The notes beneath the pieces were generated by a model that saw only the letters and a list, made by a program, of their open reading frames with translations, did no database searches and had not been told where the DNA came from. Shown here piece by piece: positions 6,461 to 61,187 of a DNA stretch of 64,000 bases (position 1 is its first letter; every line of letters starts with the position of its first letter). The translations under genes and the position numbers were made by a program. Origin of the DNA: Prosopocoilus inquinatus (taxonomy: Eukaryota > Arthropoda > Insecta > Coleoptera > Lucanidae); contig CM069873.1 of the NCBI GenBank assembly GCA_036172665.1, forward strand, positions 32,666,001-32,730,000, given 5' to 3'.

Positions 6461-6629
6461 CAATGATCTGGTATGGGTTGGATGGAATGTAGAGTGAGAG
6501 GTATTGCGACGAACATTAGAGAGAGAGAAAACTAGCCTCGATCAGCTGGGTTGGGGCAAAAACGTCAAAATTAGTTTGACAATGTCAAAACGTGAAAACA
6601 TTCGTTGTCTGTGCGTTTAGTCTGTTAGT

Positions 6630-8052
6630 TTTCCGTTCTGCATGGAGCTCTGGGTAGCACCCCACGAGTGCTCACGATTATCCTTAACGACCAAAGCGCT
6701 AAAATCAAAAGTAAAAAAGTTCCGGCGATTTTTTTGTGTCTCGATATGAAATTTTGTCAAAGTGCAAAATGGAAATTTTTCTCGAAAATTTTTCCGTTCT
6801 GCATGGAGTTCTGGGTAGCACCCCACGAGTGCTCACGATTATCCTTAAAGACCAAAGCGCTAAAATCAAAAGTAAAAAAGTTCCAGCGATTTTTCGTGTC
6901 TCGATAAGAAATTTTGTCAAAGTGCAAAATGGAAATTTTTCTCAAAAATTTTTCCGTTCTGCATGGAGTTCTGGGTAGCACCCCACGAGTGCTCACGATT
7001 ATCCTTAAAGACCAAAGCGCTAAAATCAAAAGTAAAAAAGTTCCAGCGATTTTTCGTGTCTCGATATGAAATTTTGTCAAAGTGCAAAATGGAAATTTTT
7101 CTCAAAAATTTTTCCGTTCTGCTTGGAGTTCTGGGTAGCACCCCACAAGTGCTCACGATTATCCTTAACGACCAAAGCGCTAAAATCAAAAGTAAAAAAG
7201 TTCCAGCGATTTTTCGTGTCTGGATGTGAAATTTTGTCAAAGTGTAAAATGGAAATTTTTCTCAAAAATTTTTCCGTTCTGCATGGAGTTCTGGGTAGCA
7301 CCCCACGAGTGCTCACGATTATCCTTAAAGACCAAAGCGCTAAAATCAAAAGTAAAAAAGTTCCAGCGATTTTTCGTGTCTCGATAAGAAATTTTGTCAA
7401 AGTGTAAAATGGAAATTTTTCTCAAAAATTTTTCCGTTCTGCTTGGAGTTCTGGGTAGCACCCCACAAGTGCTCACGATTATCCTTAACGACCAAAGCGC
7501 TAAAATCAAAAGTAAAAAAGTTCCAGCGATTTTTCGTGTCTGGATGTGAAATTTTGTCAAAGTGTAAAATGGAAATTTTTCTCAAAAATTTTTCCGTTCT
7601 GCATGGAGTTCTGGGTAGCACCCCACGAGTGCTCACGATTATCCTTAAAGACCAAAGCGCTAAAATCAAAAGTAAAAAAGTTCCAGCGATTTTTCGTGTC
7701 TCGATAAGAAATTTTGTCAAAGTGTAAAATGGAAATTTTTCTCAAAAATTTTTCCGTTCTGCTTGGAGTTCTGGGTAGCACCCCACAAGTGCTCACGATT
7801 ATCCTTAACGACCAAAGCGCTAAAATCAAAAGTAAAAAAGTTCCAGCGATTTTTCGTGTCTCGATAAGAAATTTTGTCAAAGTGCAAAATGGAAATTTTT
7901 CTCAAAAATTTTTCCGTTCTGCATGGAGTTCTGAGTATCACCCCACGAGTGCTCACGATTATCCTTAACGACCAAAGAGCTAAAATCAAAAGTAAAAAAG
8001 TTCCAGCGATTTTTCGTTTCTCGAATTGAAGTGTTGTCAAAGCGTAAAATGA
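6630..8052. repeat. 160-bp tandem satellite, nine units, with a 320-bp higher-order pattern
   Basis: The landmark GTGCTCACGATTATCC recurs at 6668, 6829, 6989, 7149, 7309, 7469, 7629, 7789 and 7949 (spacing 161 then 160). From about 7120 to 7760 two unit types alternate (GCTTGG/CACAAGT/TTAACG versus GCATGG/CACGAGT/TTAAAG), giving a 320-bp dimer repeat. A degenerate outlying piece (GAGTTCTGGATAGCACC) is at about 8220. Repeated 107-aa frames on both strands are by-products of the periodicity. Confidence 0.93.
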
Positions 8053-8499
8053 AAAAAAAATAATTTGAATTTCTTTTCTTTTAAGAGTAGTATGGTACTT
8101 AAACTAATAATTATTTAGTATTTATAGGTCTCTGCACCCAAAAATAAAATGTTTCTTCGTGTTCTGATCTTTTGTAGAATAAGGGGGACATAGTAATTTC
8201 AAAATTTCGAGATTCCGTTTAGAGTTCTGGATAGCACCTCAATAGTTCTAGAGAAAGTCTTAATGGTGAAATTAATTATTTCCAACAATTAACATTTTAT
8301 AGCCAATTTTCAAATTCCGTTTTGTGAACTTAGCACCCCAAATTTTAAAAGTCATTTTTTTATGTTTAATCCGCTAGAACTCTTTTTAATTTTGACAGAA
8401 CTCCAGAACTCTTTGGGGTACTATCAGAACTCCTATAAAAAATCACTTTTTTGAAAAATGGGGTGCCAACTTCACAGAGGTTAGATTTTAAGTTTTATG

Positions 8500-11359: not shown

Positions 11360-11575
11360 AAATTAATTGAAATTAACATCCGCCCACAATAATTTTTATA
11401 TCCGTAGATACGTATTTCGGTAGCTAAGCTGCCATCTTCAGTACGCTACCAACTTAAAAAAACAAAAAAATGTCTGGAAACAACCTAATCACACTGACAA
11501 AATCATAAAAATGTTAATACGTATCTACGGATATAAAAATTATTGTGGGCGGAGATTAATTTCAATTATCTCTTA
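11360..11575. repeat. Inverted-repeat insertion carrying a Penelope-type hammerhead
   Basis: Left arm 11363-11418 and right arm 11515-11572 both contain CCGCCCACAATAATTTTTAT and the ATCCGTAGATACGTA block in opposite orientation. Between them lies a hammerhead ribozyme motif (see separate entry). It is nested inside the 10755-12441 element and looks like a short Penelope-terminal or retrozyme-like insertion. Confidence 0.6.
11403..11445 (-). ncRNA. Hammerhead ribozyme, 43-nt Penelope type
   Basis: The minus strand shows stem I CGUA/UACG, core CUGAAGA, stem II GGCAGC/GCUACC (one mismatch, C opposite A), GAAA, stem III AU-ACGU-AU, and cleavage base C17 before UAC. Compared with the copies at 37.8-41.8 kb, stem I has changed on both sides (AGCG/CGCU there), so pairing is kept by covariation. 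As in those copies there is one extra U between the core and stem II. Confidence 0.7.
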
Positions 11576-12443
11576 AACCACAGACTCCTTTACTATTTTA
11601 GATTGTATTGAAATTAACAAGAATAGTAGGAAAGTATTTTGTGAAGCAATGCAGGAGGAAAGAAATAAATCCTAACAGTTTTTCATCGTCAGTATGATAT
11701 ATAGATGAATGGAATTTTATTTTGAATAAGAAGCATATTGTACAAAATTCTGGTTATTGAATTGCAAACTTCAAATCTGACATATACGTTGTTCACAAAT
11801 TAAGAAACCACCACCTGTTGCAACATGTTGCTATAAAACATAAATCCCCTATAGGAGATTATCAAAAAAATAAGTTGGCAAGGTATTTGAAGTTTCATGT
11901 CAAAGAAATCTGTCAGTTCAATGTTGCAATTGGATTATTTATATTTATATTCATTTTAACGAGCCGTTTCAATTAATTACAGTTTGTCTGTCATAAAATT
12001 GCTTGCGAACGATAAGGTAAAAACCATGAATCTATCATAATTGTTAAATTTAGAACCAGGGATTTTGTTCCGCACGTATAACCTTATCGTTTATTTCAAA
12101 CACTTGCCAATTTTGTTACCAAATTTTTAACTAAGCCACTGTTGCCAGTTGTATTTTTCACAAGACAACACCGCCAATGGTTTTTTTAATTTGTCAACAA
12201 ATTATACTAAGACGACTACATTTTTCATTTGAAATTAAAAAAAATAATTTCTATTTCAAAAGTATTGAAGTAAGTATATTAACACAATATGAATAATTTT
12301 AACACGATAACATTGGCCTTAATTCTATCTTTCATTTAATACCATTACCATTTTTGTATCTTTAAATGGCGAGCAGTAATCTACAAAAACGTAGTTCTCA
12401 ATGGAACTTTGCTATGTACGGGTTTGAAACTTGCCACCCGGTA

Positions 12444-18875: not shown

Positions 18876-18995
18876 TACAAAGGAATGATTTTCTTGAAAC
18901 ACTTGATCGCATTAGATCGAAGAAATGCGATTCATAGCTTTTTAGAAAAATTTTTTGTGCAAATCGTTTTTGATTGCAGTGAGAACCTCGAGCAG

Positions 18996-19042
18996 CCTCT
19001 GGACAGCTGTTTCAGCCCTGCTTGGGGCTTCTTCAGCAGAAA
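18996..19042 (-). ncRNA. Hammerhead ribozyme, 47-nt retrozyme type
   Basis: Stem I UUUCUG/CAGAGG (four Watson-Crick and two G-U pairs), core CUGAAGA, stem II AGCCC/GGGCU closing a CAAGCA loop, GAAA, stem III AC-AGCU-GU, then cleavage base C17 (GUC). All invariant hammerhead core positions are present. Confidence 0.9.
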
Positions 19043-19307
19043 CGTAGCTCGACATTCCCACTGCAGACCAAAAACGACTTGCCCAATTTATTCGCAAATG
19101 CGATGTAAGAATGATGAACATATAAAATAGCGACATCTTACTATCGCTTTTTGACCTAACATTGCAGTAGGATAGACAAATTGAAGCGGGATTTGCTCCT
19201 AATGAGTCCCCCATGCAAGGCGGTCATGCTTGCTGTCAAAGCATAATGAAAGATTTTAGAAAGATTTTGTGCAAATCGTTCTTGATTGCAGTGAGAACCT
19301 CGAGCAG

Positions 19308-19354
19308 CCTCTGGACAGCTGTTTCAGCCCTGCTTGGGGCTTCTTCAGCAGAAA
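19308..19354 (-). ncRNA. Hammerhead ribozyme, 47-nt retrozyme type
   Basis: Identical to the copy 312 bp to its left; complete core and stems. Confidence 0.9.
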
Positions 19355-19890
19355 CGTAGCTCGACATTCCCACTGCAGACCAAAAACGACTTGCCCAATT
19401 TATTCGCAAATGCGATGTAAGAATGATGAACATATAAAATAGCGATATCTTACTATCGCTTTTTGACCTAACATTGCAGTAGGATAGACAAATTGAAGCG
19501 GGATTTGCTCCTAATGAGTCCCCCATGCAAGGCGGCCATGCTTGCTGTCAAAGCATAATGAAAGATTTTAGAAAAATTTTGTGCAAATCGTTTTTGATTG
19601 CAGTGAGAACCTCGAGCAGCCTCTGGACAGCTGTTTCAGCCCTGCAATCAAAAACGATTTGCACAAAATTTTTCTAAAATCTTTCATTATGCTTTGACAG
19701 CAAGCATGGCCGCCTTGCATGGGGGACTCATTAGGAGCAAATCCCGCTTCAATTTGTCTATCCTACTGCAATGTTAGGTCAAAAAGCGATAGTAAGATAT
19801 CGCTATTTTATATGTTCATCATTCTTACATCGCATTTGCGAATAAATTGGGCAAGTCGTTTTTGGTCTGCAGTGGGAACGTCGAGCTACG

Positions 19891-19937
19891 TTTCTGCTGA
19901 AGAAGCCCCAAGCAGGGCTGAAACAGCTGTCCAGAGG
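19891..19937 (+). ncRNA. Hammerhead ribozyme, 47-nt retrozyme type
   Basis: Complete core and stems on the plus strand, first full unit after the inverted junction. Confidence 0.9.
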
Positions 19938-20202
19938 CTGCTCGAGGTTCTCACTGCAATCAAAAACGATTTGCACAAAATTTTTCTAAAATCTTTCATT
20001 ATGCTTTGACAGCAAGCATGGCCGCCTTGCATGGGGGACTCATTAGGAGCAAATCCCGCTTCAATTTGTCTATCCTACTGCAATGTTAGGTCAAAAAGCA
20101 ATAGTAAGATGTCGCTATTTTATATGTTCATCATTCTTACATCGCATTTGCGAATAAATTGGGCAAGTCGTTTTTGGTCTGCAGTGGGAATGTCGAGCTA
20201 CG

Positions 20203-20249
20203 TTTCTGCTGAAGAAGCCCCAAGCAGGGCTGAAACAGCTGTCCAGAGG
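20203..20249 (+). ncRNA. Hammerhead ribozyme, 47-nt retrozyme type
   Basis: 312 bp from the previous copy; complete core and stems. Confidence 0.9.
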
Positions 20250-20718
20250 CTGCTCGAGGTTCTCACTGCAATCAAAAACGATTTGCACAAAATTTTTCTA
20301 AAATCTTTCATTATGCTTTGACAGCAAGCATGGCCGCCTTGCATGGGGGACTCATTAGGAGCAAATCCCGCTTCAATTTGTCTATCCTACTGCAATGTTA
20401 GGTCAAAAAGCGATAGTAAGATGTCGCTATTTTATATGTTCATCATAGCTTTTTAGATTGAAAAATAAAAAAAGTTTTTTTCGTTGTCATGGAAACCAAA
20501 ATTACCAATTGATGTGTTCGGACTCGTAATGATCCCTAGATTTCAAATATGTAAAAATGTTAGTTGATATCACTTCTGACGAAACCGGAAGTCCTATGAT
20601 GACTAGCAGTATGTCGGTATATTCAATTTTTTGTTTGATTTATTGTCTCTAAAATACAGGTAAATCGATTAATAAATAAAGACTCTAGAAGGGTAAACAC
20701 ATGACGTGGGACAGCCGG

Positions 20719-25588: not shown

Positions 25589-25893
25589 ATCATAACTTTT
25601 CCGATAATTACTAAACCTTTGGCTTTTCTTTTATTCTATTTATTTTTTTCTAGCCTAAAGGACATTTTGGTTAGCAATTACATTAACAAAAAAGTGTATA
25701 AAAATAATTACTTCAGTAAGCATAAGTGTTTTTTAAATTTTTAAATGGTATGTACAGTTACGGAAACAGAAAGTGGGACAGTAAACTTTCGTTAGTTTAA
25801 ACCTTACTTCTAAATTTCAGTAACTATGGTAATTTATCAACCTTCAAATTAAGTAAAATGATTAATCATTCCGTTTATAATGAAAAATTATAA

Positions 25894-26167
25894 GAGTGAT
25901 GAACAGATAAATTAGCGACATCTTACTATCGCTTTTTGACCTGACATTGCAGTAGGATAGACAAATTGAAGCGGGATTTGCTCCTAATAAGTCCCCCCAT
26001 GCAAGGCGGCCATGCTTGCTGTCGAAGCATAATGAAAGATTTTAGAAAATTTTTGTGCAAATCGTCTTTGATTGCAGTGAAAACCCAAGCAGGGCTGAAA
26101 CAGCTGTAGAGAGGCTGCTCGAGGTTTTCACTGCAATCAAAAACGATTTGCACAAAATTTTTCTAAA
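25894..26167. mobile_element. Retrozyme-like repeat, locus 2 (short, degraded ribozyme)
   Basis: A minus-oriented partial unit (25915-26080) joins a plus-oriented partial unit (26083-26167) at an inverted junction. 12-bp target duplication GAAAAATTATAA (25882-25893, 26168-26179). Only the 3' half of the ribozyme remains (GGGCUGAAACAGCUGU), so it cannot self-cleave. Confidence 0.82.
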
Positions 26168-26179
26168 GAAAAATTATAA

Positions 26180-26887: not shown

Positions 26888-27092
26888 TCTGTAATCCTTA
26901 GAACATATAAAATAGCGACATCTTACTATCGCTTTTTGACCTAACATTGCAGTAGGATAGACAAATTGAAGCGGGATTTGCTCCTAATGAGTCCCCCATG
27001 CAAGGCGGCCATGCTTGCTGTCAAAGCATAATGAAAGATTTTAGAAAAATTTTGTGCAAATCGTTTTTGATTGCAGTGAGAACCTCGAGCAG

Positions 27093-27139
27093 CCTCTGGA
27101 CAGCTGTTTCAGCCCTGCTTGGGGCTTCTTCAGCAGAAA
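27093..27139 (-). ncRNA. Hammerhead ribozyme, 47-nt retrozyme type
   Basis: Complete core CUGAAGA...GAAA, stem II AGCCC/GGGCU, cleavage C. Confidence 0.9.
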
Positions 27140-27675
27140 CGTAGCTCGACATTCCCACTGCAGACCAAAAACGACTTGCCCAATTTATTCGCAATTGCGA
27201 TGTAAGAATGATGAACATATAAAATAGCGACATCTTACTATCGCTTTTTGACCTGACATTGCAGTAGGATAGACAAACTGAAGCGGGATTTGCTCCTAAT
27301 GAGTCCCCCATGCAAGGCGGCCATGCTTGCTGTCAAAGCATAATGAAAGATTTTAGAAAAATTTTGTGCAAATCGTTTTTGATTGCAGGGCTGAAACAGC
27401 TGTCCAGAGGCTGCTCGAGGTTCTCACTGCAATCAAAAACGATTTGCACAAAATTTTTCTAAAATCTTTCATTATGCTTTGACAGCAAGCATGGCCGCCT
27501 TGCATGGGGGACTCATTAGGAGCAAATCCCGCTTCAATTTGTCTATCCTACTGCAATGTTAGGTCAAAAAGCGATAGTAAGATGTCGCTATTTTATATGT
27601 TCATCACTCTTACATCGCAATTGCGAATAAATTGGGCAAGTCGTTTTTGGTCTGCAGTGGGAATGTCGAGCTACG

Positions 27676-27722
27676 TTTCTGCTGAAGAAGCCCCAAGCAG
27701 GGCTGAAACAGCTGTCCAGAGG
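27676..27722 (+). ncRNA. Hammerhead ribozyme, 47-nt retrozyme type
   Basis: Complete; plus-strand half of the locus 3 array. Confidence 0.9.
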
Positions 27723-27987
27723 CTGCTCGAGGTTCTCACTGCAATCAAAAACGATTTGCACAAAATTTTTCTAAAACCTTTCATTATGCTTTGACAGCAA
27801 GCATGGCCGCCTTGCATGGGGGACTCATTAGGAGCAAATCCCGCTTCAATTTGTCTATCCTACTGCAATGTTAGGTCAATAAGCGATAGTAAGATGTCGC
27901 TATTTTATATGTTCATCATTCTTACATCGCATTTGCGAATAAATTGGGCAAGTCGTTTTTGGTCTGCAGTGGGAATGTCGAGCTACG

Positions 27988-28034
27988 TTTCTGCTGAAGA
28001 AGCCCCAAGCAGGGCTGAAACAGCTGTCCAGAGG
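27988..28034 (+). ncRNA. Hammerhead ribozyme, 47-nt retrozyme type
   Basis: 312 bp from the previous copy; complete. Confidence 0.9.
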
Positions 28035-28257
28035 CTGCTCGAGGTTCTCACTGCAATCAAAAACGATTTGCACAAAATTTTTCTAAAAAAAAAAAAAAAT
28101 TTTCTGAAAGTTTTTTAGAACAGAATAACATATTTTCCAACGTGTCAAATGTACATAAAAATTGTCCATGGTTTTTCTCATATTATCACTTGCTGTGTTC
28201 TTTCAAACCTAAACACCTTAAGTCGTTTTTGGTCTGCAGTGGGAATGTCGAGCTACG

Positions 28258-28304
28258 TTTCTGCTGAAGAAGCCCCAAGCAGGGCTGAAACAGCTGTCCA
28301 GAGG
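28258..28304 (+). ncRNA. Hammerhead ribozyme, 47-nt retrozyme type
   Basis: Complete. Spacing from the previous copy is 270 bp because the unit is interrupted by the A-rich insertion with loss of unit sequence. Confidence 0.88.
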
Positions 28305-28482
28305 CTGCTTGAGGTTCTCACTGCAATCAAAACCGATTTGCACAAAATTTTTCTGTAATCCTTAGCATATTTTTAAGTTACCATGGTTACCTTTTATTGA
28401 TTTTGAAAAGTTTGGAATCGGTTGTCAGAAACCAAAGTATTAATTAGATTTCTTCTTTAATTAAACGTTTAAATTTCGTTTG

Positions 28483-36330: not shown

Positions 36331-36775
36331 TATACAAAGACGCAGTTTGGTAATTTGGTTCGATTCAAAAAGAATTTACGCGTTCGATCCGTCTAAGTTT
36401 ACCATAAGCCAAACATAATGAAATGCATTCAGATCACTTCTAAGTGATCTGCTAAAAACGAATTAATTTCGATTACGAATCGAATGCAGCTAAAGAAAGA
36501 ATAATGTACATACCTGTGTCCTTGATGTTCAATTTTTACACGCTGATGCAAATGGCGATCTGTAGGGCGTACTCAAAACTTGAACTTGAGGGTGAAGCAC
36601 AGGCGACAACCAAAGCCTTTAGTCGCTTTGTTCACACCACATATCACGTGTAAGCAATCTAGCGTTGTGATTGATAGATACGTACGAAATCATCCGATGC
36701 ATGCCGATTGATACTAATTTATAAACACAAAACCAAAGACGTTAAATAAACGTAAAAAATAATGATATATAAAAC

Positions 36776-37294
36776 ATATAAAATAGCGACATCTTACTAT
36801 CACTTTTTAACCTGACATTGCAGTAGGATAGACAAATTGAAGCGGGATTTGCTCCTAGTAAGTCCCCCATGCAAGGCGGCCATGCTTGCTGTCAAAGCAT
36901 AATGAAAGTTTTTAGAAAAAAATTGTGCAAATCGTTTTTGATTGCAGTGAGAACCTCGAGCAGCCTCTGGACAGCTGTTTCAGCACAAAATTTTTCTTTG
37001 ACAGCAAGCATGGCCGCCTTGCATGGGGGACTTATTAGGAGCAAATCCCGCTTCAATTTGTCTATCCTACTGCAATGTCAGGTCAAAAAGCGATGGTAAG
37101 ATGTCGCTATTTTATATGTTCATCATTCTTACATCGCAATTGCGAATAAATTGGGCAAGTCGTTTTTGGTCTGCAGTGGGAATGTCGAGCTACGTCTCTG
37201 CTGAAGAAGCCCCAAGCAGGGCTGAAACAGCTGTCCAGAGGCTGCTCGAGGTTCTCACTGCAATCAAAAACGATTTGCACAAAAATTTTCTAAA
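36776..37294. mobile_element. Retrozyme-like repeat, locus 4
   Basis: A minus partial unit (36776-36983) and one plus unit (36984-37294) meet at an inverted junction. 12-bp target duplication GATATATAAAAC (36764-36775, 37295-37306). One complete ribozyme, on the plus strand; the minus one is cut at the junction. Confidence 0.86.
37195..37241 (+). ncRNA. Hammerhead ribozyme, 47-nt retrozyme type (stem I variant)
   Basis: As the other copies, but stem I is UCUCUG/CAGAGG: the change U to C converts a G-U wobble into a C-G pair, which keeps or strengthens the helix. Confidence 0.9.
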
Positions 37295-37476
37295 GATATA
37301 TAAAACGTATCTCAAAATTTGTTTAACACCGTAATCGCTTTCAGTGCACATCACTATATTTTTCTGTTAATAAATCATTGACTTTCCTTCTGTTTAAACA
37401 AATCCAACAATTTGAACACAAAAAATAAAATCTACAAAAATAATTTTTATATAAAGTCAATAATTACAATACTCGT

Positions 37477-37733
37477 TTAAAATACGTATATTTATTCAAC
37501 CTTTATCATATACGTTTAAAATTTATACTATAACCTATACTAAAATAAACTGTAGTTTTATAAACTTTTATTAAACCATTCAATTTTACTTGCAAATTTA
37601 TTTCTATTTTAAGCCAGTACTTTGGCGTACTCGTGTAAAATACGTATATTTATAAAACTTTTACCACATACGTATAATATATATGAAACACTTATACCAT
37701 AACCAAAATTAAACTAAATTATAGTATTATCAA
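37477..37733. repeat. Subterminal direct repeat (about 160 bp period)
   Basis: AAAATACGTATATTTAT followed by a CATATACGT or CACATACGT block occurs at about 37483 and 37646, each ending in a TTTATTAA-containing segment; the second copy runs into the candidate terminal repeat, now split by the Penelope insertion. Confidence 0.6.
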
Positions 37734-37814
37734 TAATCACAAAGCAACACAAAACCTGTGGCTGTAATCCAAATAAATAGTGAGAAAACCCCTCTACCAC
37801 ATTAATTCACTGAA

Positions 37815-37857
37815 AGCGAATACGTATTTCGGTAACGATGTTACCATCTTCAGCGCT
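37815..37857 (-). ncRNA. Hammerhead ribozyme, 43-nt Penelope type
   Basis: Minus strand, sense to the RT gene: stem I AGCG/CGCU, core CUGAAGA, one extra U, stem II GGUAAC/GUUACC, GAAA, stem III AU-ACGU-AU, cleavage U17. The extra U between core and stem II is atypical of classical hammerheads; activity is inferred. Confidence 0.75.
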
Positions 37858-37973
37858 AAACTGATATTAAACTTTAAAACAACAAATAAACTAAACTAGA
37901 CTAGCCGCCCTCCCCCCCTCTCTTTCTTTGTACCGTATTATGCATGCAAAGCAAACCGGGATTCTTCGAAAAT

Positions 37974-39133
37974 CTAAAGGTCGAAGAGGCAAGAAGCGGT
38001 CGGCCCGGACTTCTCAAAATTCATTAATCTATTCCTATTTCTGTGAATCTCCAAGCTTTCGAAAGAATCTAGGTTTGTTTTGTTATTAATTTGTTTGATT
38101 AATTCTATTTTACTTACCGAATGATTGTTTTCAAGCACGTGTAAGGCAACACTAGATTTATCAAAGCGTTTGTATTTTAAATGAGCCAAGTGTTCTTTGA
38201 ATCTAATTTTTAAGGATCTTTTTGTTTGCCCTACATAAATTTGATCACAATTTTTACAACTAATTTTATATATACTTGATTTATCCTCCGAATCTACTTT
38301 ATCTTTTGGATTTCCCAGCAACGATTTTAAGCTGTTATTGTTGGTGTAAACTATTCTTAAACCTAATTTTTTAAAAATTGTATTCAACCCTTTAGTATAT
38401 TGAGGATAAAACGGCATTTTTACAATTTTCTTATAATCTACCTCACCTATTTTGTCAGATTTTAGTGTGGTTATTTTATTAATCTCTAATTTTTGTTTTT
38501 GTTTTCTAATAATGTTATAGATTACATCGGGTTGGTAACCATTGTACGTGGCGATTTTAATAATTTCTTGAATTTCTTTACTATAATTAGCAGTTGATAA
38601 AGGGAATGTCAGCAACCTATGCACTAAGAAATTTAAGGCCGTTAATTTATATTGTTTGCAATGATTTGAATCCGCGGGAATGAATCTATTAACATTAGTA
38701 GATTTCCTATAAACGTTAAATTCTAATTTATTACTATTTCTAGTTACTAATGTTGTCTAAGAAGGGTAGTTTATTGTTAGTTTCAATTTCATAGGTAAAT
38801 TTGATGGTGGTGAATTTAGAGTTTAAACTTTTAAGGAATTCCTCTATTGAACATTTACTTTGGTCAAAAACACAAAATATATCATCGACGTATCTCACCC
38901 AGATTTTAGGAAAATAATCTAAAGAGGCTTTAAGTTCCGTTTCAAATTTACCCATAAACAGATTTGCCATAAACGATGACAAGCTATTTCCCATGGCTGC
39001 CCCTTCCAATTGTTGGTAAAACTCGTTGTTAAATTTAAAGAAATTTTGATTCATCCATAAACTAGTGAGTTTAATTAATTCATCCACTTCTTCCTTATCG
39101 AAGCTATTCTTTGATAAAAGTTCTTTCAGGTAA
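37974..39133 (-). pseudogene. Penelope reverse transcriptase + GIY-YIG endonuclease (5'-truncated, minus copy)
   Basis: From 39133 leftwards: YLKELLSKNSFDKEEVDELI, EGAAMGNSLS, catalytic YVDD (RYVDDIFCVFDQ), KLPFLD; a small frame change near 38755 (LDN versus LDTLVTRNS in the other copy) breaks the frame. The second ORF (38624-37974, 216 aa) ends with the GIY-YIG nuclease signature IYKISCKNCDQIYVGQTKR and KIRFKEHLAHLKY. RT copies RNA and the nuclease nicks the target. The gene begins mid-RT, at the inverted junction with the plus copy. Confidence 0.9.
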
Positions 39134-40545
39134 CCTAAAATGATTACGGAGACCAAAAAAACCATGTTAGACTGCAGTAAAGCGATTACGAACGCTTTAC
39201 GTTACAAATTAACAACATCTAACCCAATAATCCCTAGATTGTATTGTTTACCAAAAATACACAAACCAGGTAACAGCATGAGACCCATTGTATTCTGTAT
39301 AAATTCACCGACTTCTTTATTATCGAGGTGGTTAAGTGATAAATTTAATAACCTTCCAGTCAAATTACCCGATTTTTCTGTTAAAAAATCATTAGAATTT
39401 ATTGAAAAATTAAAAAATCTAGAAATAAAACCAAACGAAATTTTAGTATCCTTCGATGTCACTTCGTTGTTTCCTAGTATACCTGTAAAAACCACCTTAG
39501 ATTACCTGAAAGAACTTTTATCAAAGAATAGCTTCGATAAGGAGGAAGTGGATGAATTAATTAAACTCACTAGTTTATGCATGAATCAAAATTTCTTTAA
39601 ATTTAACAACGAGTTTTACCAACAATTGGAAGGGGCAGCCATGGGAAATAGCTTGTCACCGTTTATGGCAAATCTGTTTATGGGTAAATTTGAAACGGAA
39701 CTTAAAGCCTCTTTAGATTATTTTCCTAAAATCTAGGCGAGATACGTCGATGATATATTTTGTGTTTTTGACCAAAGTAAATGTTCAATAGAGGAATTCC
39801 TTAAAAGTTTAAACTCTAAATTCACCACCATCAAATTTACCTATGAAATTGAAACTAACAATAAACTACCCTTTTTAGACACATTAGTAACTAGAAATAG
39901 TAATAAATTAGAATTTAACGTTTATAGGAAATCTACTAATGTTAATAGATTCATTCCCGTGGATTCAAATCATTGCAAACAATATAAATTAGCGGCCTTA
40001 AATTTCTTAGTGCATAGGATGCTGACATTCCCTTTATCAACTGTTAATTATAGTAAAGAAATTCAAGAAATTATTAAAATCGCCACGTACAATGGTTACC
40101 AACCCGATGTAATCTATAACATTATTAGAAAACAAAAACAAAAATTAGAGATTAATAAAATAACCACACTAAAATCTGACAAAATAGGTGAGGTAGATTA
40201 TAAGAAAATTGTAAAAATGCCGTTTTATCCTCAATATACTAAAGGGTTGAATACAATTCTTAAAAAATTAGGTTTAAGAATAGTTTACACCAACAATAAC
40301 AGCTTAAAATCGTTGCTGGGAAATCCAAAAGATAAAGTAGATTCGGAGGATAAATCAGGTATATATAAAATTAGTTGTAAAAATTGTGATCAAATTTATG
40401 TAGGGCAAACAAAAAGATCCTAAAAAATTAGATTCAAAGAACACTTGGCTCATTTAAAATACAAACGCTTTGATAAATCTAGTGTTGCCTTACACGTGCT
40501 TGAAAACAATCATTCGGTAAATAAAATAGAATTAATCAAATAAGT
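39134..40545 (+). pseudogene. Penelope reverse transcriptase + GIY-YIG endonuclease (plus copy, two nonsense mutations)
   Basis: Starts further upstream in RT than the minus copy: RLYCLPKIHKPGNSMRPIV, SFDVTSLFPSIPV, EGAAMGNSLSPFM. At 39736 the codon for W in KIWVRYVDD is TAG, and at 40423 a leucine codon in KRSLKIRF is TAA; otherwise the frame is open through YVDD to VGQTKR. The C-terminal end is cut at about 40545, where an oppositely oriented terminal repeat begins. About 95% or more similar to the minus copy by eye, so both are recent. Confidence 0.9.
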
Positions 40546-40581
40546 AGTGAGAAAACCCCTCGACCGCATTAATTCACTGAA

Positions 40582-40624
40582 AGCGAATACGTATTTCGGT
40601 AACGAAGTTACCATCTTCAGCGCT
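40582..40624 (-). ncRNA. Hammerhead ribozyme, 43-nt Penelope type
   Basis: Same motif in the third terminal-repeat piece; loop UUC instead of AUC. Confidence 0.75.
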
Positions 40625-40955
40625 AAACTGATATTAAACTTTAAAACAACAAATAAACTAAGCTAGACTAGCCGCACTCCCCCCCTCACTTTCTTTGTAC
40701 CGTATTATGCATGCAAAGCAAACCGGGATTCTTCGAAAATCTAAAGGTCGAAGAGGCAAGAAGCGGTCGGCCCGGACTTCTCAAAATTCATTAATCTATT
40801 CCTATTTCTGTGAATCTCCAAGCTTTCGAAAGAATCTAGGTTTGTTTTGTTATTAATTTGTTTGATTAATTCTATAATCACGAAGCAACACAAAACCTGT
40901 GGCTGTAATCCAAATAAATAGTGAGAAAACCCCTCGACCACATTAATTCACTGAA

Positions 40956-40998
40956 AGCGAATACGTATTTCGGTAACGAAGTTACCATCTTCAGCGCT
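40956..40998 (-). ncRNA. Hammerhead ribozyme, 43-nt Penelope type
   Basis: Identical to the previous copy. Confidence 0.75.
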
Positions 40999-41375
40999 AA
41001 ACTGATATTAAACTTTAAAACAACAAATAAACTAAGCTAGACTAGCCGCACTCCCCTCCTCACTTTCTTTGTACCGTATTATGCATGCAAAGCAAACCGG
41101 GATTCTTCGAAAATCTAAAGGTCGAAGAGGCAAGAAGCGGTCGGCCCGGACTTCTCAAAATTCATTAATCAGAGATTCACAGAAATAGGAATAGATTAAT
41201 TGATTAATGAATTTTGAGAAGTCCGGGCCGACCGCTTCTGTGCCTCTTCGACCTTTAGATTTTCGAAGAATCCCGGTTTGCTTTGCATGCATAATTACGG
41301 TACAAAGAAAGTGAGGAGGGGAGTGCGGCTAGTCTAGCTTAGTTTATTTGTTGTTTTAAAGTTTAATATCAGTTT

Positions 41376-41418
41376 AGCGCTGAAGATGGTAACTTCGTTA
41401 CCGAAATACGTATTCGCT
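41376..41418 (+). ncRNA. Hammerhead ribozyme, 43-nt Penelope type
   Basis: Plus-strand copy, after the inverted junction near 41180. Confidence 0.75.
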
Positions 41419-41749
41419 TTCAGTGAATTAATGTGGTCGAGGGGTTTTCTCACTATTTATTTGGATTACAGCCACAGGTTTTGTGTTGCTTCGTGATTAT
41501 AGAATTAATCAAACAAATTAATAACAAAACAAACCTAGATTCTTTCGAAAGCTTGGAGATTCACAGAAATAGGAATAGATTAATGAATTTTGAGAAGTCC
41601 GGGCCGACCGCTTCTTGCCTCTTCGACCTTTAGATTTTCGAAGAATCCCGGTTTGCTTTGCATGCATAATACGGTACAAAGAAAGTGAGGGGGGGAGGGC
41701 GACTAGTCTAGTTTAGTTTATTTGTTGTTTTAAAGTTTAATATCAGTTT

Positions 41750-41792
41750 AGCGCTGAAGATGGTAAAATCGTTACCGAAATACGTATTCGCT
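41750..41792 (+). ncRNA. Hammerhead ribozyme, 43-nt Penelope type (stem II variant)
   Basis: Stem II is GGUAA/UUACC with a five-base AAUCG loop, one pair shorter than the others. Confidence 0.7.
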
Positions 41793-41876
41793 TTCAGTGA
41801 ATTAATGTGGTAGAGGGGTTTTCTCACTATTTAATAGTATTATCAACGTTTATTAAGCCAAACGGTGTTGCTTGGG

Positions 41877-42110: not shown

Positions 42111-42837
42111 CTATATAACAAGTCAGTCATTGAAAGTAGATTAACTTCAGAGTGCAGATGTTCTTAACCGTTCCTTCTGCGAACCCAGGGACCAGGAGAG
42201 AGAGCCAATTCCCATGTAAATTTTTTGTCCACGTAATATGACGTAGTAATACTTAGTAACGTATTTATCTGTTGCGATGGCGCCACTATTCTACGCGCGC
42301 TTTTTACGCGCCTTTTTAATTTAAATAATTGTTTAGGTTTTCTTCTCCATACATTCATTTAAGTAATACGTTATATTCTGCAAAGACTCTAAAATGCTGT
42401 AATATACATTAGAATTACAGAATATAACGTATTACCTAAACGAATGTGTGGAGAAGAAAACCTAAAGAAACGGAAAATCAAGCTTAAATTATGATATTTA
42501 CTAGATTTTAAGCTAATAAAAAAGCCACATATTATTCTCAAATTACTATATTTAACTGCAAAAGTAACTGCTAATAATAACTTTATTTGTACATTGTTAT
42601 TCATGAAGTTCATAATTTATGGAAATGCTTTCAAAATTGCAATTCAATACATTCTTTCTTTATCCGTACATATTATTTTTGACTTTAAGTGTGAATATCT
42701 TAAAAATTACTGCAAATTAAACTTTTTTTTAACAATTTTTATTCAGAATACTGTACTTTGACCACCTCTATATTTTATAAATCAGCTAATCACTCACACA
42801 TTAATAATACTTGTTGTTGTTGTTATTATTATTATTA
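42111..42837. other. Intergenic DNA with inverted repeat
   Basis: About 42310-42380 (TTTAGGTTTTCTTCTCCATA, then CATTCATTTAAGTAATACGT) is repeated inverted at 42412-42465, with TATATTCTG at the apex: a hairpin of about 60-bp arms. No gene seen. Confidence 0.55.
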
Positions 42838-43027
42838 ACATATAAAATAGCGACATCTTACTATCGCTTTTTGACCTAACATTGCAGTAGGATAGACAAA
42901 TTGAAGCGGGATTTGCTCCTAATGAGTCCCCCATGCAAGGCGGCCATGCTTGCTGTCAAAGCATAATGAAAGATTTTAGAAAAAATTTGTGCAAATCGTT
43001 TTTGATTGCAGTGAGAACCTCGAGCAG

Positions 43028-43074
43028 CCTCTGGACAGCTGTTTCAGCCCTGCTTGGGGCTTCTTCAGCAGAAA
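43028..43074 (-). ncRNA. Hammerhead ribozyme, 47-nt retrozyme type
   Basis: Complete core and stems. Confidence 0.9.
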
Positions 43075-43524
43075 CGTAGCTCGACATTCCCACTGCAGAC
43101 CAAAAACGACTTGCCCAATTTATTCGCAAATGCGATGTAAGAATGATGAACATATAAAATAGCGACATCTTACTATCGCTTTTTGACCTAACATTGCAGT
43201 AGGATAGACAAATTGAAGCGGGATTTGCTCCTAATGAGTCCCCCATGCAAGGCGGCCATGCTTGCTGTCAAAGCATAATGAAAGATTTTAGAAAAAATTT
43301 GTGCAAATCGTTTTTGATTGCAGTGAGAACCTCGAGCAGCCTCTGGACAGCTGTTTCAGCCCTGCTTGGAGCAAATCCCGCTTCAATTTGTCTATCCTAC
43401 TGCAATGTTAGGTCAAAAAGCGATAGTAAGATGTCGCTATTTTATATGTTCATCATTCTTACATCGCATTTGCGAATAAATTGGGCAAGTCGTTTTTGGT
43501 CTGCAGTGGGAATGTCGAGCTACG

Positions 43525-43571
43525 TTTCTGCTGAAGAAGCCCCAAGCAGGGCTGAAACAGCTGTCCAGAGG
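43525..43571 (+). ncRNA. Hammerhead ribozyme, 47-nt retrozyme type
   Basis: Complete core and stems. Confidence 0.9.
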
Positions 43572-43836
43572 CTGCTCGAGGTTCTCACTGCAATCAAAAA
43601 CGATTTGCACAAATTTTTTCTAAAATCTTTCATTATGCTTTGACAGCAAGCATGGCCGCCTTGCATGGGGGACTCATTAGGAGCAAATCCCGCTTCAATT
43701 TGTCTATCCTACTGCAATGTTAGGTCAAAAAGCGATAGTAAGATGTCGCTATTTTATATGTTCATCATTCTTACATCGCATTTGCGAATAAATTGGGCAA
43801 GTCGTTTTTGGTCTGCAGTGGGAATGTCGAGCTACG

Positions 43837-43883
43837 TTTCTGCTGAAGAAGCCCCAAGCAGGGCTGAAACAGCTGTCCAGAGG
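43837..43883 (+). ncRNA. Hammerhead ribozyme, 47-nt retrozyme type
   Basis: 312 bp from the previous copy; complete. Confidence 0.9.
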
Positions 43884-43931
43884 CTGCTCGAGGTTCTCAC
43901 TGCAATCAAAAACGATTTGCACAAATTTTTT

Positions 43932-43932
43932 C

Positions 43933-43963
<31 letters not shown>

Positions 43964-44370
43964 GTTATTGTTATTCTTATTCTTATTCTTATTCTTATTC
44001 TTATTCTTATTCTTATTCTTATTGTTATTGTTATTGTTATTGTTATTCTTATTATTCTTATTCTTATTCTTATTCTTATTCTTATTCTTATTCTTATTCT
44101 TATTCTTATTCTTATTCTTATTCTTATTCTTATTCTTATTCTTATTCTTATTCTTATTCTTATTCTTATTCTTATTCTTATTCTTATTCTTATTCTTATT
44201 CTTATTCTTATTCTTATTCTTATTCTTATTCTTATTCTTATTCTTATTCTTATTCTTATTCTTATTCTTATTCTTATTCTTATTCTTATTCTTATTCTTA
44301 TTCTTATTCTTATTCTTATTCTTATTCTTATTCTTATTCTTATTCTTATTCTTATTCTTATTCTTATTCG
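43932..44370. repeat. Long microsatellite: (TTA)n then (TTATTG)n and (TTATTC)n
   Basis: Starts as TTA repeats directly after the retrozyme array, changes to hexamers and runs as (TTATTC)n to 44369. The long Leu/Phe reading frame is a by-product. Confidence 0.97.
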
Positions 44371-45840: not shown

Positions 45841-46497
45841 TTTACATTGAAACATTTATTATCAAATTTCTCGCAGTATACGTCAGAAGTTTGTGAATTT
45901 TTTAATGCTGCTAGCTCTTGTCATTGGTTGCACCCAACTGTACACAACGTTGAAATTTTACCTTCACAATTTTATACGCTCGGTCGTTATGATGAAGTGG
46001 GTGTAAACCGCGATGGTGGAGTTCTACTGGCCTTCAAATAGCACTGTTTGATAGAACCTGTTGATTTATACCACTTATTAAATCTTTTGTACATTGATTG
46101 TCTTGCTTGTAAATGTCACCTTGGCAGAAAGACATTGCTTATTATTCTAGTGTACTTTCCGCATATTGCTACATTACAGGAATTATCTATATATTTTGTA
46201 ATTTCTTTGAAGAATTGTCAGTATATTTTGAGGATACTTTGCTTAAGGGCGACTTCAATCTGCCTGAATATATTCTAAATGAAACAAATAGTAGTATCCA
46301 ATTTTTAATATTAAAACAATACAATACAATTGCAAATTTGTCTGGCAGATTACTTGATCTGGTGTTCTCCAGTAATTTCTGCAATATTGAACGTGATCCT
46401 GTTCCCCTAATGAATGAAGACACTCATCATTCCTGCTTTATCTGTCACGTTAACTATTCAACACCTCTTCGTTAAAATTGATAACAGTAATGTTAAA

Positions 46498-46778
46498 TAG
46501 ATAAAACAGCGACATCCTTCAATCGCTTTTTGACCTGACATTGCAATAGGGTAGACAAATGGAAGCGGTTTGCTACATAATAAGTTTACCCCGTGTAAGG
46601 CGGCCATGCTTGCGGTCAAAGCATAATGAAAGTTAAAAAAAAAAATTGCAAATCGTTTTTGATTGCAGTGAAAACCTCGAGCAGCCTCTGTACAGCTGTT
46701 TCAGCTCTATTTGGAGCTTCTTCAGCAGAAATGTAGCTCAAAAAAGCGATCGTAGGAGTCGCTGTTTTAATTTTTTTT
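46498..46778. mobile_element. Retrozyme-like repeat, locus 6 (diverged)
   Basis: A single diverged unit mostly on the minus strand, with an inverted tail (AAAGCGATCG...GTCGCTGTTTT) mirroring its start. Target duplication AGTAATGTTAAA / AGTAACGTTAAA (46486-46497, 46779-46790; one mismatch). Sits inside the non-LTR pseudogene. Carries one complete ribozyme with compensatory stem changes. Confidence 0.82.
46685..46731 (-). ncRNA. Hammerhead ribozyme, 47-nt retrozyme type, covariant stem II
   Basis: Core CUGAAGA and GAAA unchanged. Stem II is AGCUC/GAGCU where other copies have AGCCC/GGGCU: a C-G to U-A double change that keeps the pair. Loop CAAAUA differs freely. The cleavage base is A instead of C (permitted H17). 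Confidence 0.92.
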
Positions 46779-46942
46779 AGTAACGTTAAAATATTCAATT
46801 TTAAGAGAGCTAATTTTGTGGAACTATATCGTCATATATATCTTATCGACTGGTCTTGTCTACGTGATTACTCTAATGTTGATGACATGATACAGCATTT
46901 CTATGGCATCCCGAACAACCTACTTAGCAAATATGTTCAAAG

Positions 46943-59463: not shown

Positions 59464-60329
59464 TAGAATAAACAAAGTAAAATTTGAAAACATGCTCTAC
59501 TCATTATTTGTTTAAATGAATGCTAGGTTTAAAACAGACAAATTTACACACAAATAATATTACATATACATATATATATATACCAGCTTTGTTTTGAATG
59601 CAAAGGACTTCAACTGCTCCTCCATTTGTTCTAATTTTTCTTCTGTAGCTAGAGGAAAATCCTGCAATACATCACCCTCATCATTGACATCTTCAGCTTG
59701 TGTATCATTTTTCTTAGTTAATGCATCTACACTTTGTGATAATTTTATTAAGTGCATTTTAATAAAGGATAAATCTCTGTTTACTTTGTTTTGAAATTCT
59801 GAAACGTTATAAATACTTTGTTTTCAAAAAAATATCAATTTAATAGTATAGTTACCTTGATCTGCTATAGATTTGTCTCACACTATCGAATCTGTCCGTG
59901 TTAAGTCAGTTGAGCTACTGCCGCTGCCTGATTTTGAAGTAGTACATTCATCTATGTCTACTCGTGTTATTTTCTTTAGTTTTGTTGGCGGTATGACATT
60001 CTCTAAAGTACATTCTGTATCTAGCAGTGATGCTTCAATACGTCTTGTTGGTTGGGTGATATTCTCTGCAACTCTATTCAAGCAAGGAGTTGGTGGCGGC
60101 GGTAATGGTTTCAATCGTAAATGCTCCATTTCGTCTTCACTTGTATCACTACTAAGCCGTCTCTTTTTTCTGGATTTTCTACTTTTCTTTGATGCCTCCC
60201 AATCAGTGCTCAGATCCGTTTGCTCTTCAGCAAGCAATAACTTCTTTCTACCAACTTCATAAGAAGCTTAAAAATAATAAAATTTACTCTTTATTCTCCT
60301 ACAAATGATATTCAAACTAGCCAGATAAG

Positions 60330-60846
60330 AAAAAATTTAAATTTTTTTGCCGCAAATCGTTTTTGATTGCAGTGGATCACTCGAGCAGCCTCTGTACAGC
60401 TGTTTCAGGCCTCATTGGGGTTAGCAGAAACGTGGCTCGAGAGTTCCACTGCAAACCAAAACGACTTGTCCCTAGTTATTCGCAAAAGCGATGTAAAAGT
60501 CATGAATAGATTAAGTAAAGACATCTTAATTAAAATTGCATGCTGACCATCCTAATGCAATGTAAGGTCAGGATACGATTTTAAGATGTCACTACTTAAT
60601 CTATTCATGACTTTTACATCGCTTTTGCGAATAACTAGGGACAAGTCGTTTTGGTTTGCAGTGAAACTCTCGAGCTACGTTTTTGCTGACGAAACCTCAA
60701 TGAGGGCAAATTTTTTAAAATTTTCATGGTGCTTTGACAGCAAGCATGGCCGCCTTGCATGGGATGACTTATTATGTAGTAAACTGGCTTCAATTCGTCA
60801 ATCCTAATGCAATATGCAGTCAAGATGTCGCTACTTAATCTATTAA
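60330..60846. mobile_element. Retrozyme-like repeat, locus 7 (most diverged)
   Basis: Minus partial unit (60345-60540) and plus partial unit (60565-60830) around an inverted junction. 12-bp target duplication TAGCCAGATAAG (60318-60329, 60847-60858). The ribozyme strand reads UUUCUGCUAACCCCAAUGAG then GCCUGAAACAGCUGUACAGAGG: stem I, GAAA and stem III remain, but the CUGAAGA core is lost, so it is dead. Confidence 0.8.
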
Positions 60847-61187
60847 TAGCCAGATAAGGTTAATTTGAAGTTTCAAAATATATAGTAATGAAAAAGTGTT
60901 AGAATTATAGAGTAAATTAACGTCTATGTACTCACAATAAGTTCCCAAAATTTTCATTTCATACTAGGCCAATCGTCTTGAGGTTGTTCAAAATTTTTAA
61001 CTGCTGCAGTATATTTCAAAGAGCTGTTAAATAAGGGCCAATAACATTGATCGGCTTTAATCCAATGTATTGGTACAAGTTGGACGCCATCATTGAATTC
61101 AACACACCATTGCTTTTGCTCCATAGCTGAATATATTAAAACATTTCAAGAAAAATTAAATCTAAAATAATCCTTAAATAATTAATA

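Follow-up and report, generated by a model that had tools for sequence, protein, structure and literature searches.

Animal retrozymes, which lack long terminal repeats (LTRs), are described as repeats of 150-450 bp with a GC content below 50%, a type I hammerhead ribozyme, target duplications of more than 4 bp and no coding function found, in genomes that also harbour Penelope-like elements (PLEs) with hammerheads of their own (PMC7229834). The LTR retrozymes of plants are likewise non-autonomous, carry hammerheads and are proposed to pass through a circular RNA, but their ribozymes are of type III, their duplications are 4 bp long and their circles measure 600-800 nt, and they possess LTRs (PMC7229834). 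Another insect repeat with a hammerhead, pDo500 of cave crickets, was described as satellite DNA (PMC2808323, PMC2837043). The enzyme that moves animal retrozymes was left open in reviews of 2020 and 2024 (PMC7761336, PMC11722881), and according to the earlier review the repeats have no conserved motif from which the mover could be inferred (PMC7761336). PLEs were proposed because both kinds of element bear hammerheads, occur in tandem and co-exist (PMC7229834, PMC7761336, PMC11722881). Here, a stretch of 64,000 nucleotides from the beetle Prosopocoilus inquinatus (contig CM069873.1, G000:C5:32666001-32730000, hereafter the window) was analyzed, in which a 312-bp hammerhead-bearing repeat shares the listed features of animal retrozymes and differs from them in its copies, most of which consist of head-to-head arms and end at two preferred points. 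Type I topology and 12-bp duplications separate it from the plant type. The element is a new metazoan retrozyme family; what is new about it is the two-point, head-to-head architecture and the resemblance of this architecture to that of a PLE in its own genome. The main text of PMC7229834 contains none of the words inverted, head-to-head and opposite orientation, and no paper on a two-ended insertion structure of animal retrozymes was found among open-licence main texts, which does not prove that none exists.

The presence of the repeat was confirmed with a hammerhead descriptor (CUGANGA, stem II of at least 4 bp, GAA, an A-U-closed stem III, H17 and stem I of at least 4 bp) that was drawn up after the motif had been seen. 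It detected 13 sites in the window, compared with 2 in 150 dinucleotide shuffles: four at 18.9-20.4 kb, four at 26.9-28.4 kb, one at 37.2 kb, three at 42.8-43.9 kb and a diverged one at 46.7 kb. An earlier interpretation made from the letters of the window, here called the sequence-only reading, had reported twelve intact copies with all hammerhead parts at five loci. The twelve complete copies were recovered, but at four loci, as the fifth (46.7 kb) holds the diverged thirteenth site, and two degenerate loci at 25.9 and 60.3 kb had been missed. Its 312-bp spacing was reproduced for same-strand neighbours (cores beginning at 19036 and 19348, 19897 and 20209, 27682 and 27994, 43531 and 43843). 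The 96-aa frames that it had noted in the units were also found, and a protein search with this frame returned no relative, an absence that is not proof of a non-coding sequence. The seven loci that carry the unit, on both strands, are labelled A to G, and the unit is numbered R1-R312, where R1 is the base directly 3' of the predicted cut (GUC|C). It has a GC content of 43%, occurs partly as tandem units, accumulates indels in older copies and contains neither a reverse transcriptase (RT) nor a GIY-YIG frame. The topology is type I with a conserved core, as judged by the descriptor and by model RF00163, which aligns end to end on an isolated 96-base site below its cut-off (23.8 bits, E 3.8e-4, cut-off 34). 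The covariance-model check proposed in the sequence-only reading gave only part of the expected signal: in addition to this alignment, four sites of locus A match RF02275 below threshold (14.5 bits, cut-off 52), and no match at gathering thresholds was obtained in the window. Rfam scores for miRNA families were traced to the inverted-repeat hairpin at the locus A junction and discarded. One stem II pair has switched from C-G to U-A in the old copy F. At the stem II pair R288:R297, 200 places depart from C at R288, of which the 100 listed were counted by eye and with no baseline; 78 of these carry U (opposite base G in 68, A in 8 and U in 2) and 22 carry A or G, always opposite G. The sense strand of a 312-nt circle has one frame with a single stop per turn and 103 open codons, which is probably due to chance because no protein relative was found. 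No relatives turned up elsewhere in phage records, viral contigs or prokaryote genome contigs. For the transposon proteins, the nearest named proteins are from insects, with Callosobruchus maculatus as the best (58% identity).

To obtain an overview of the copies in the 650-Mb genome, a 34-nt ribozyme pattern in which four positions were loose was searched; it occurs 13,016 times (6456 + 6560; reversed control 0), or one per 50 kb compared with one per 5 kb in the window. Sixty stretches around 81 of 100 listed places, taken in order along contig C1, contained 71 retrozyme clusters, and 70 insertions were retained after one cluster at a stretch end had been dropped. This sample represents one contig of one genome, and copies without the pattern are under-represented by its design. 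Two positions, T1 and T2, are preferred as outer ends: of 140 ends, 61 fall at T1 (R50-67, with 34 at R60-61), 60 at T2 (R185-216), 4 in the T2 range in opposite orientation and 15 elsewhere. The two ranges, which were fixed after the ends had been inspected and make up 16% of the unit, together account for 121 ends. One T1 and one T2 end were present in 49 of the 70 insertions (26 and 23 in the two orientations); the others are T2/T2 (2), T1/T1 (1) or another mix (18). A minus-then-plus junction was seen in 58 of the 71 clusters, a plus-then-minus junction in 3 and a single piece in 13. The tandem arrays of the sequence-only reading give an incomplete picture, as most copies genome-wide are short head-to-head inverted arms on both strands with two preferred outer ends; its assignment to the metazoan retrozymes agrees with the type I core, the short non-coding repeat, the dispersal and the target duplications but had overlooked this insertion architecture.

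A flanking repeat of at least 12 bp was detected at 27 of the 70 insertions (exactly 12 bp, the mode, at 21) compared with 2 of 3000 mismatched pairs. Among the 49 insertions with one T1 and one T2 end, 38 have a repeat of at least 9 bp and 6 one of at most 7 bp, and the duplications of the 29 with at least 11 bp are 85% AT, compared with 64% in the 60 stretches, elements included. Exactly two arms with T1 and T2 ends are found in 45 insertions, after exclusion of 4 of the 49 that have more pieces. Most of their arms are about one unit long or shorter, and only three T1 arms and two T2 arms exceed 390 nt. The arm junctions are scattered across the whole unit, with an overlap of 0-5 nt in 33 of 45, so that the insertions arose separately and were not copied from one inverted unit; a clustering of junctions near the ribozyme, hinted at by the window loci, was not seen in this set.

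This architecture bears on two explanations that do without PLE machinery. Plain satellite DNA that expanded at the DNA level, with the hammerhead as a relic, is highly improbable: tandem units are present and hammerhead satellites are known from cave crickets (PMC2808323, PMC2837043), but the insertions argue against it, being short and dispersed, with target duplications, preferred ends, scattered junctions and arms that mostly measure about one unit or less. The second explanation is a short interspersed nuclear element (SINE)-like repeat moved by a long interspersed nuclear element (LINE), for which target-primed reverse transcription would start from one 3' end and inversions would arise by twin priming. 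T1 alone would pass as an ordinary fixed 3' end, and LINE duplications of 7-20 bp are usual. Twin priming is known for L1 and produces inversions, but would give a variable second start. Here, the second outer end is preferred as well (60 T2 ends, R186-211, with both ends preferred in 49 of 70 insertions), and head-to-head arms are the usual layout (58 of 71 clusters). Even though LINEs are retained as candidate movers in reviews (PMC11722881), this origin appears unlikely.

The 45 two-arm insertions also allowed the RNA template to be characterized. A monomer linearized by the ribozyme would end at R1, yet the R312/R1 boundary is crossed by the T1 arm in 44 of 45 insertions and by the T2 arm in 22 of 45; the template was therefore circular or an uncleaved multimer. 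The two arms of one insertion diverge at 1.7% of compared sites, compared with 4.0% between insertions, and share 56 variants (mean 15 and maximum 39 in 300 permutations). Such common variants would also be expected if a single cDNA started at T1 and folded back to prime its own inverted arm, and self-priming on an antisense template was inferred for rotifer Penelope elements (PMC3846280). A fold-back copy should not, however, halt at a second preferred point, and 9 of the 45 insertions have trimmed arms with no overlap in the RNA, so that one arm cannot be the copy of the other; this explanation is thus quite improbable. More weight has to be given to PLE machinery acting on an uncleaved linear multimer, with no part for the ribozyme in transposition, although this too is considered unlikely. 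Arrays A and C mix unit variants, which could reflect a multimer or a switch between templates, whereas array E is homogeneous, and coral, mussel and axolotl contain abundant retrozyme circles (PMC7229834); the last two points do not settle the matter for this element.

The unit folds better than its shuffles (z -5.9). The predicted circular fold contains a long helix of R2-R47 with R228-R276 that continues stem I, and the far end of this helix is a multiloop in which T1 (R48-69) and T2 (R186-210) are predicted to be unpaired. Stems I and II are mostly predicted with a probability above 0.9. In the genomic copies, 112 of 169 changed cells in the long helix are still paired, compared with 26 of 80 in the local stems, where changed cells tally copies and not events.

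A candidate for the helper type lies in the window itself. This PLE (37734-41833; 37721..41846 with its flanking duplications) contains RT and GIY-YIG pieces on both strands and is bounded by a 13-bp target duplication, ATAGTATTATCAA, at 37721-37733 and 41834-41846. A second, Penelope-type hammerhead-like motif was detected at 11.4, 37.9, 40.6, 41.0, 41.4 and 41.8 kb, and five of these copies belong to the PLE. Rfam returned no match on the one copy examined, and the putative hammerhead label is based on core, position and literature. For the PLE start-site region, 695 candidate places were obtained in the genome, 40 of which were scored, and 20 short ends (7 pairs and 6 single ends) were examined. 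The head-to-head layout of the 7 pairs is by choice because they were picked for close minus and plus hits. According to a script, 9 ends break off 9-13 nt into the reference tail and the other 11 at 49-54 nt; two of the nine shorter ends (L098, L106) run on, past a small insertion, to the second point. Duplications of 13-14 bp are common to 6 of the 7 pairs, with at most 9 bp in mismatched pairs; the exception, L101/L102, has two T2 ends. Some of these 20 ends are not independent of each other, since the L091/L092 pair is a duplicate of the window PLE in an identical target site and the flank of L110 is also that of L095. The stretch with locus D and the PLE (about 36.8-41.9 kb) is probably a segmental duplication, because both elements are found together, again in an identical target site, at G000:C5:44.80 Mb.

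Judged from these ends, the insertion signature of the retrozyme has a counterpart in one PLE family of this genome. Both have two preferred ends, one of which reaches further (tail), an inverted arm, a hammerhead near the start sites, AT-rich targets and target duplications of similar length. The PLE encodes RT and a GIY-YIG endonuclease, whereas the retrozyme encodes neither; it inserts like a PLE but is not a PLE. A purified Anolis PLE was reported to cut both target strands, preferably in AT-rich DNA, and to extend them, with reverse transcription beginning at two adjacent sites inside the RNA, which correspond to the ends seen in genomic copies (PMC11167929). Rotifer Penelope elements have inverted ends and duplications of 8-10 bp (PMC3846280). 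Pieces of further PLE families (L056 700-3101, L086 1900-2400) carry a similar hammerhead motif, CTGAAGATGGCAGC...GCTGCCGAAATACGTA, so that several families are possible helpers. A small element at 11366-11603 contains the Penelope-type hammerhead motif (minus strand, 11441) and an inverted partial copy of itself between 16-bp direct repeats, ATTGTATTGAAATTAA, and resembles a miniature PLE from a different family.

With a probability of roughly 0.75, the 312-bp repeat, whose ribozyme core, preferred ends, inverted arms, duplications and template continuity across the cut site can be read from the DNA, belongs to the non-autonomous metazoan retrozymes and is copied by a PLE-type enzyme from both nicked strands. 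The type I hammerhead is predicted to cut the 312-nt RNA at R312/R1. Read-through transcripts would be cut to monomers and closed into circles by a host ligase. A PLE endonuclease and reverse transcriptase, acting in trans, would nick the two strands of an AT-rich target with a stagger of about 12 bp, and each nicked 3' end would prime reverse transcription on one and the same RNA strand, near T1 (R60) in one case and near T2 (R200) in the other. The point at which the two cDNAs join would be random, in most cases with short microhomology. Priming from two strands and the meeting of the cDNAs would thus produce head-to-head arms, two preferred outer ends and the 12-bp target duplication. Cleavage, the circle and the PLE as helper are the steps that we infer. 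A more specific version is put forward tentatively, at somewhat less than even odds: the retrozyme RNA may be a minimal substrate for two-ended priming, that is, a ribozyme-made circle with both start sites in one multiloop, on which a dimeric PLE enzyme would prime from both nicked strands and copy the same RNA strand.

Several results weigh against the main explanation, the ribozyme part included. Among the 70 insertions, 21 lack the T1/T2 pair and 43 have less than 12 bp in common at their flanks. The minimum-energy fold lacks stem III (probability 0.00), which is replaced by a helix within the ribozyme region. The two oldest copies (F and G) show no excess of compensatory changes over slid controls, and copy G breaks 6 of 55 pairs. 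Two of the three multi-unit arrays are heterogeneous, which does not speak for one monomeric circle as the template. Ribozyme cleavage was dispensable for PLE insertion in vitro (PMC11167929). The duplication is 12 bp long in the retrozyme and 13-14 bp in this genome's PLE, and the T1-T2 spacing is about 140 nt compared with about 40 nt. The motif TCGAGG..TTCTCACT, which lies downstream of the ribozyme in the retrozyme and in the PLE, was no better than chance, since equally good scores were reached by 417 of 500 and by 227 of 2000 shuffles, and no sequence motif common to the retrozyme and the one PLE family compared exceeded shuffles. Other PLE families of this genome are candidate helpers as well.

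The insertion scars speak for Penelope-type machinery and supply two positions (about R60 and R200), and a template that is continuous across the cut site bears on the purpose of the ribozyme. If two-ended priming is general, one mechanism would explain both head-to-head PLEs and animal retrozymes and would name the machinery of the latter.

Six of the seven window loci, all but F, are built from head-to-head arms, and F has a single long arm. According to BLAST, the T1 ends lie at R57-65 in A-E and at R71 in the diverged locus G, and the T2 ends at R197-208. The flanks have 12-15 bp in common at six of seven loci, including E, which is uninformative as it lies in a microsatellite, and 9 bp at F. 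With fixed 24-nt flank windows, at least 12 bp were common at 6 of 7 loci compared with 11 of 4000 random window pairs. Locus A (18932..20457) consists of a T1 arm (18940-19645, minus) and a T2 arm (19642-20446, plus) between 15-bp duplications, TCATAGCTTTTTAGA, at 18932-18946 and 20443-20457. Its hammerheads are at 18995..19043 and 19307..19355 on the minus strand (cores from 19036 and 19348, descriptor) and, on the plus strand, at 19890..19938 (core from 19897, descriptor; RF00163 match 19891-19937) and 20202..20250 (core from 20209; cut after 20243 predicted by consensus). The older locus B (25882..26179) has a T2 arm (25891-26092, minus), a T1 arm (26084-26167, plus) and a 12-bp duplication, GAAAAATTATAA, at 25882-25893 and 26168-26179. 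Locus C (26888..28365) comprises a T2 arm (26901-27388, minus), a T1 arm (27385-28088, plus) and a further piece (28220-28351, plus), with descriptor cores at 27133 (minus) and at 27682, 27994 and 28264 (plus) and a 14-bp duplication, TCTGTAATCCTTAG, at 26888-26901 and 28352-28365. Between its retrozyme pieces, about 130 nt of non-retrozyme sequence that starts with an A run (28089-28219) is enclosed by the same duplication, which would fit a template switch by the enzyme. Loci A (18940-20446) and C (26901-28088) share the arm junction R23/R293, while their flanks, variants and T2-arm lengths differ; this junction could be a coincidence or a hot spot, and a common template is unsupported because the variants differ.

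Locus D (36764..37306) has a T2 arm (36773-36984, minus), a T1 arm (about 36990-37294, plus) with a descriptor core at 37201 (plus), and a 12-bp duplication, GATATATAAAAC, at 36764-36775 and 37295-37306. Locus E (42831..43934) contains a T2 arm (42831-43372, minus) and a T1 arm (43368-43934, plus), with descriptor cores at 43068 (minus) and at 43531 and 43843 (plus); its duplication is unreadable because it lies inside a TTA-type microsatellite, and a TTATTC microsatellite of 73 copies (43935-44369) adjoins it. The old locus F (46470..46792) is a T2 arm (46489-46739, minus) with a 9-bp repeat, CGTTAAAAT, on both sides and a diverged core at 46725 (minus) with a predicted GUA site. At the likewise old locus G (60318..60858), where no site passes the descriptor, the arms (60325-60528, minus; 60549-60847, plus, in pieces) are flanked by a 12-bp duplication, TAGCCAGATAAG, at 60318-60329 and 60847-60858. 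Another tandem array is found at 6629-8055, with 8.9 copies of a 160-bp unit and 96% matches.
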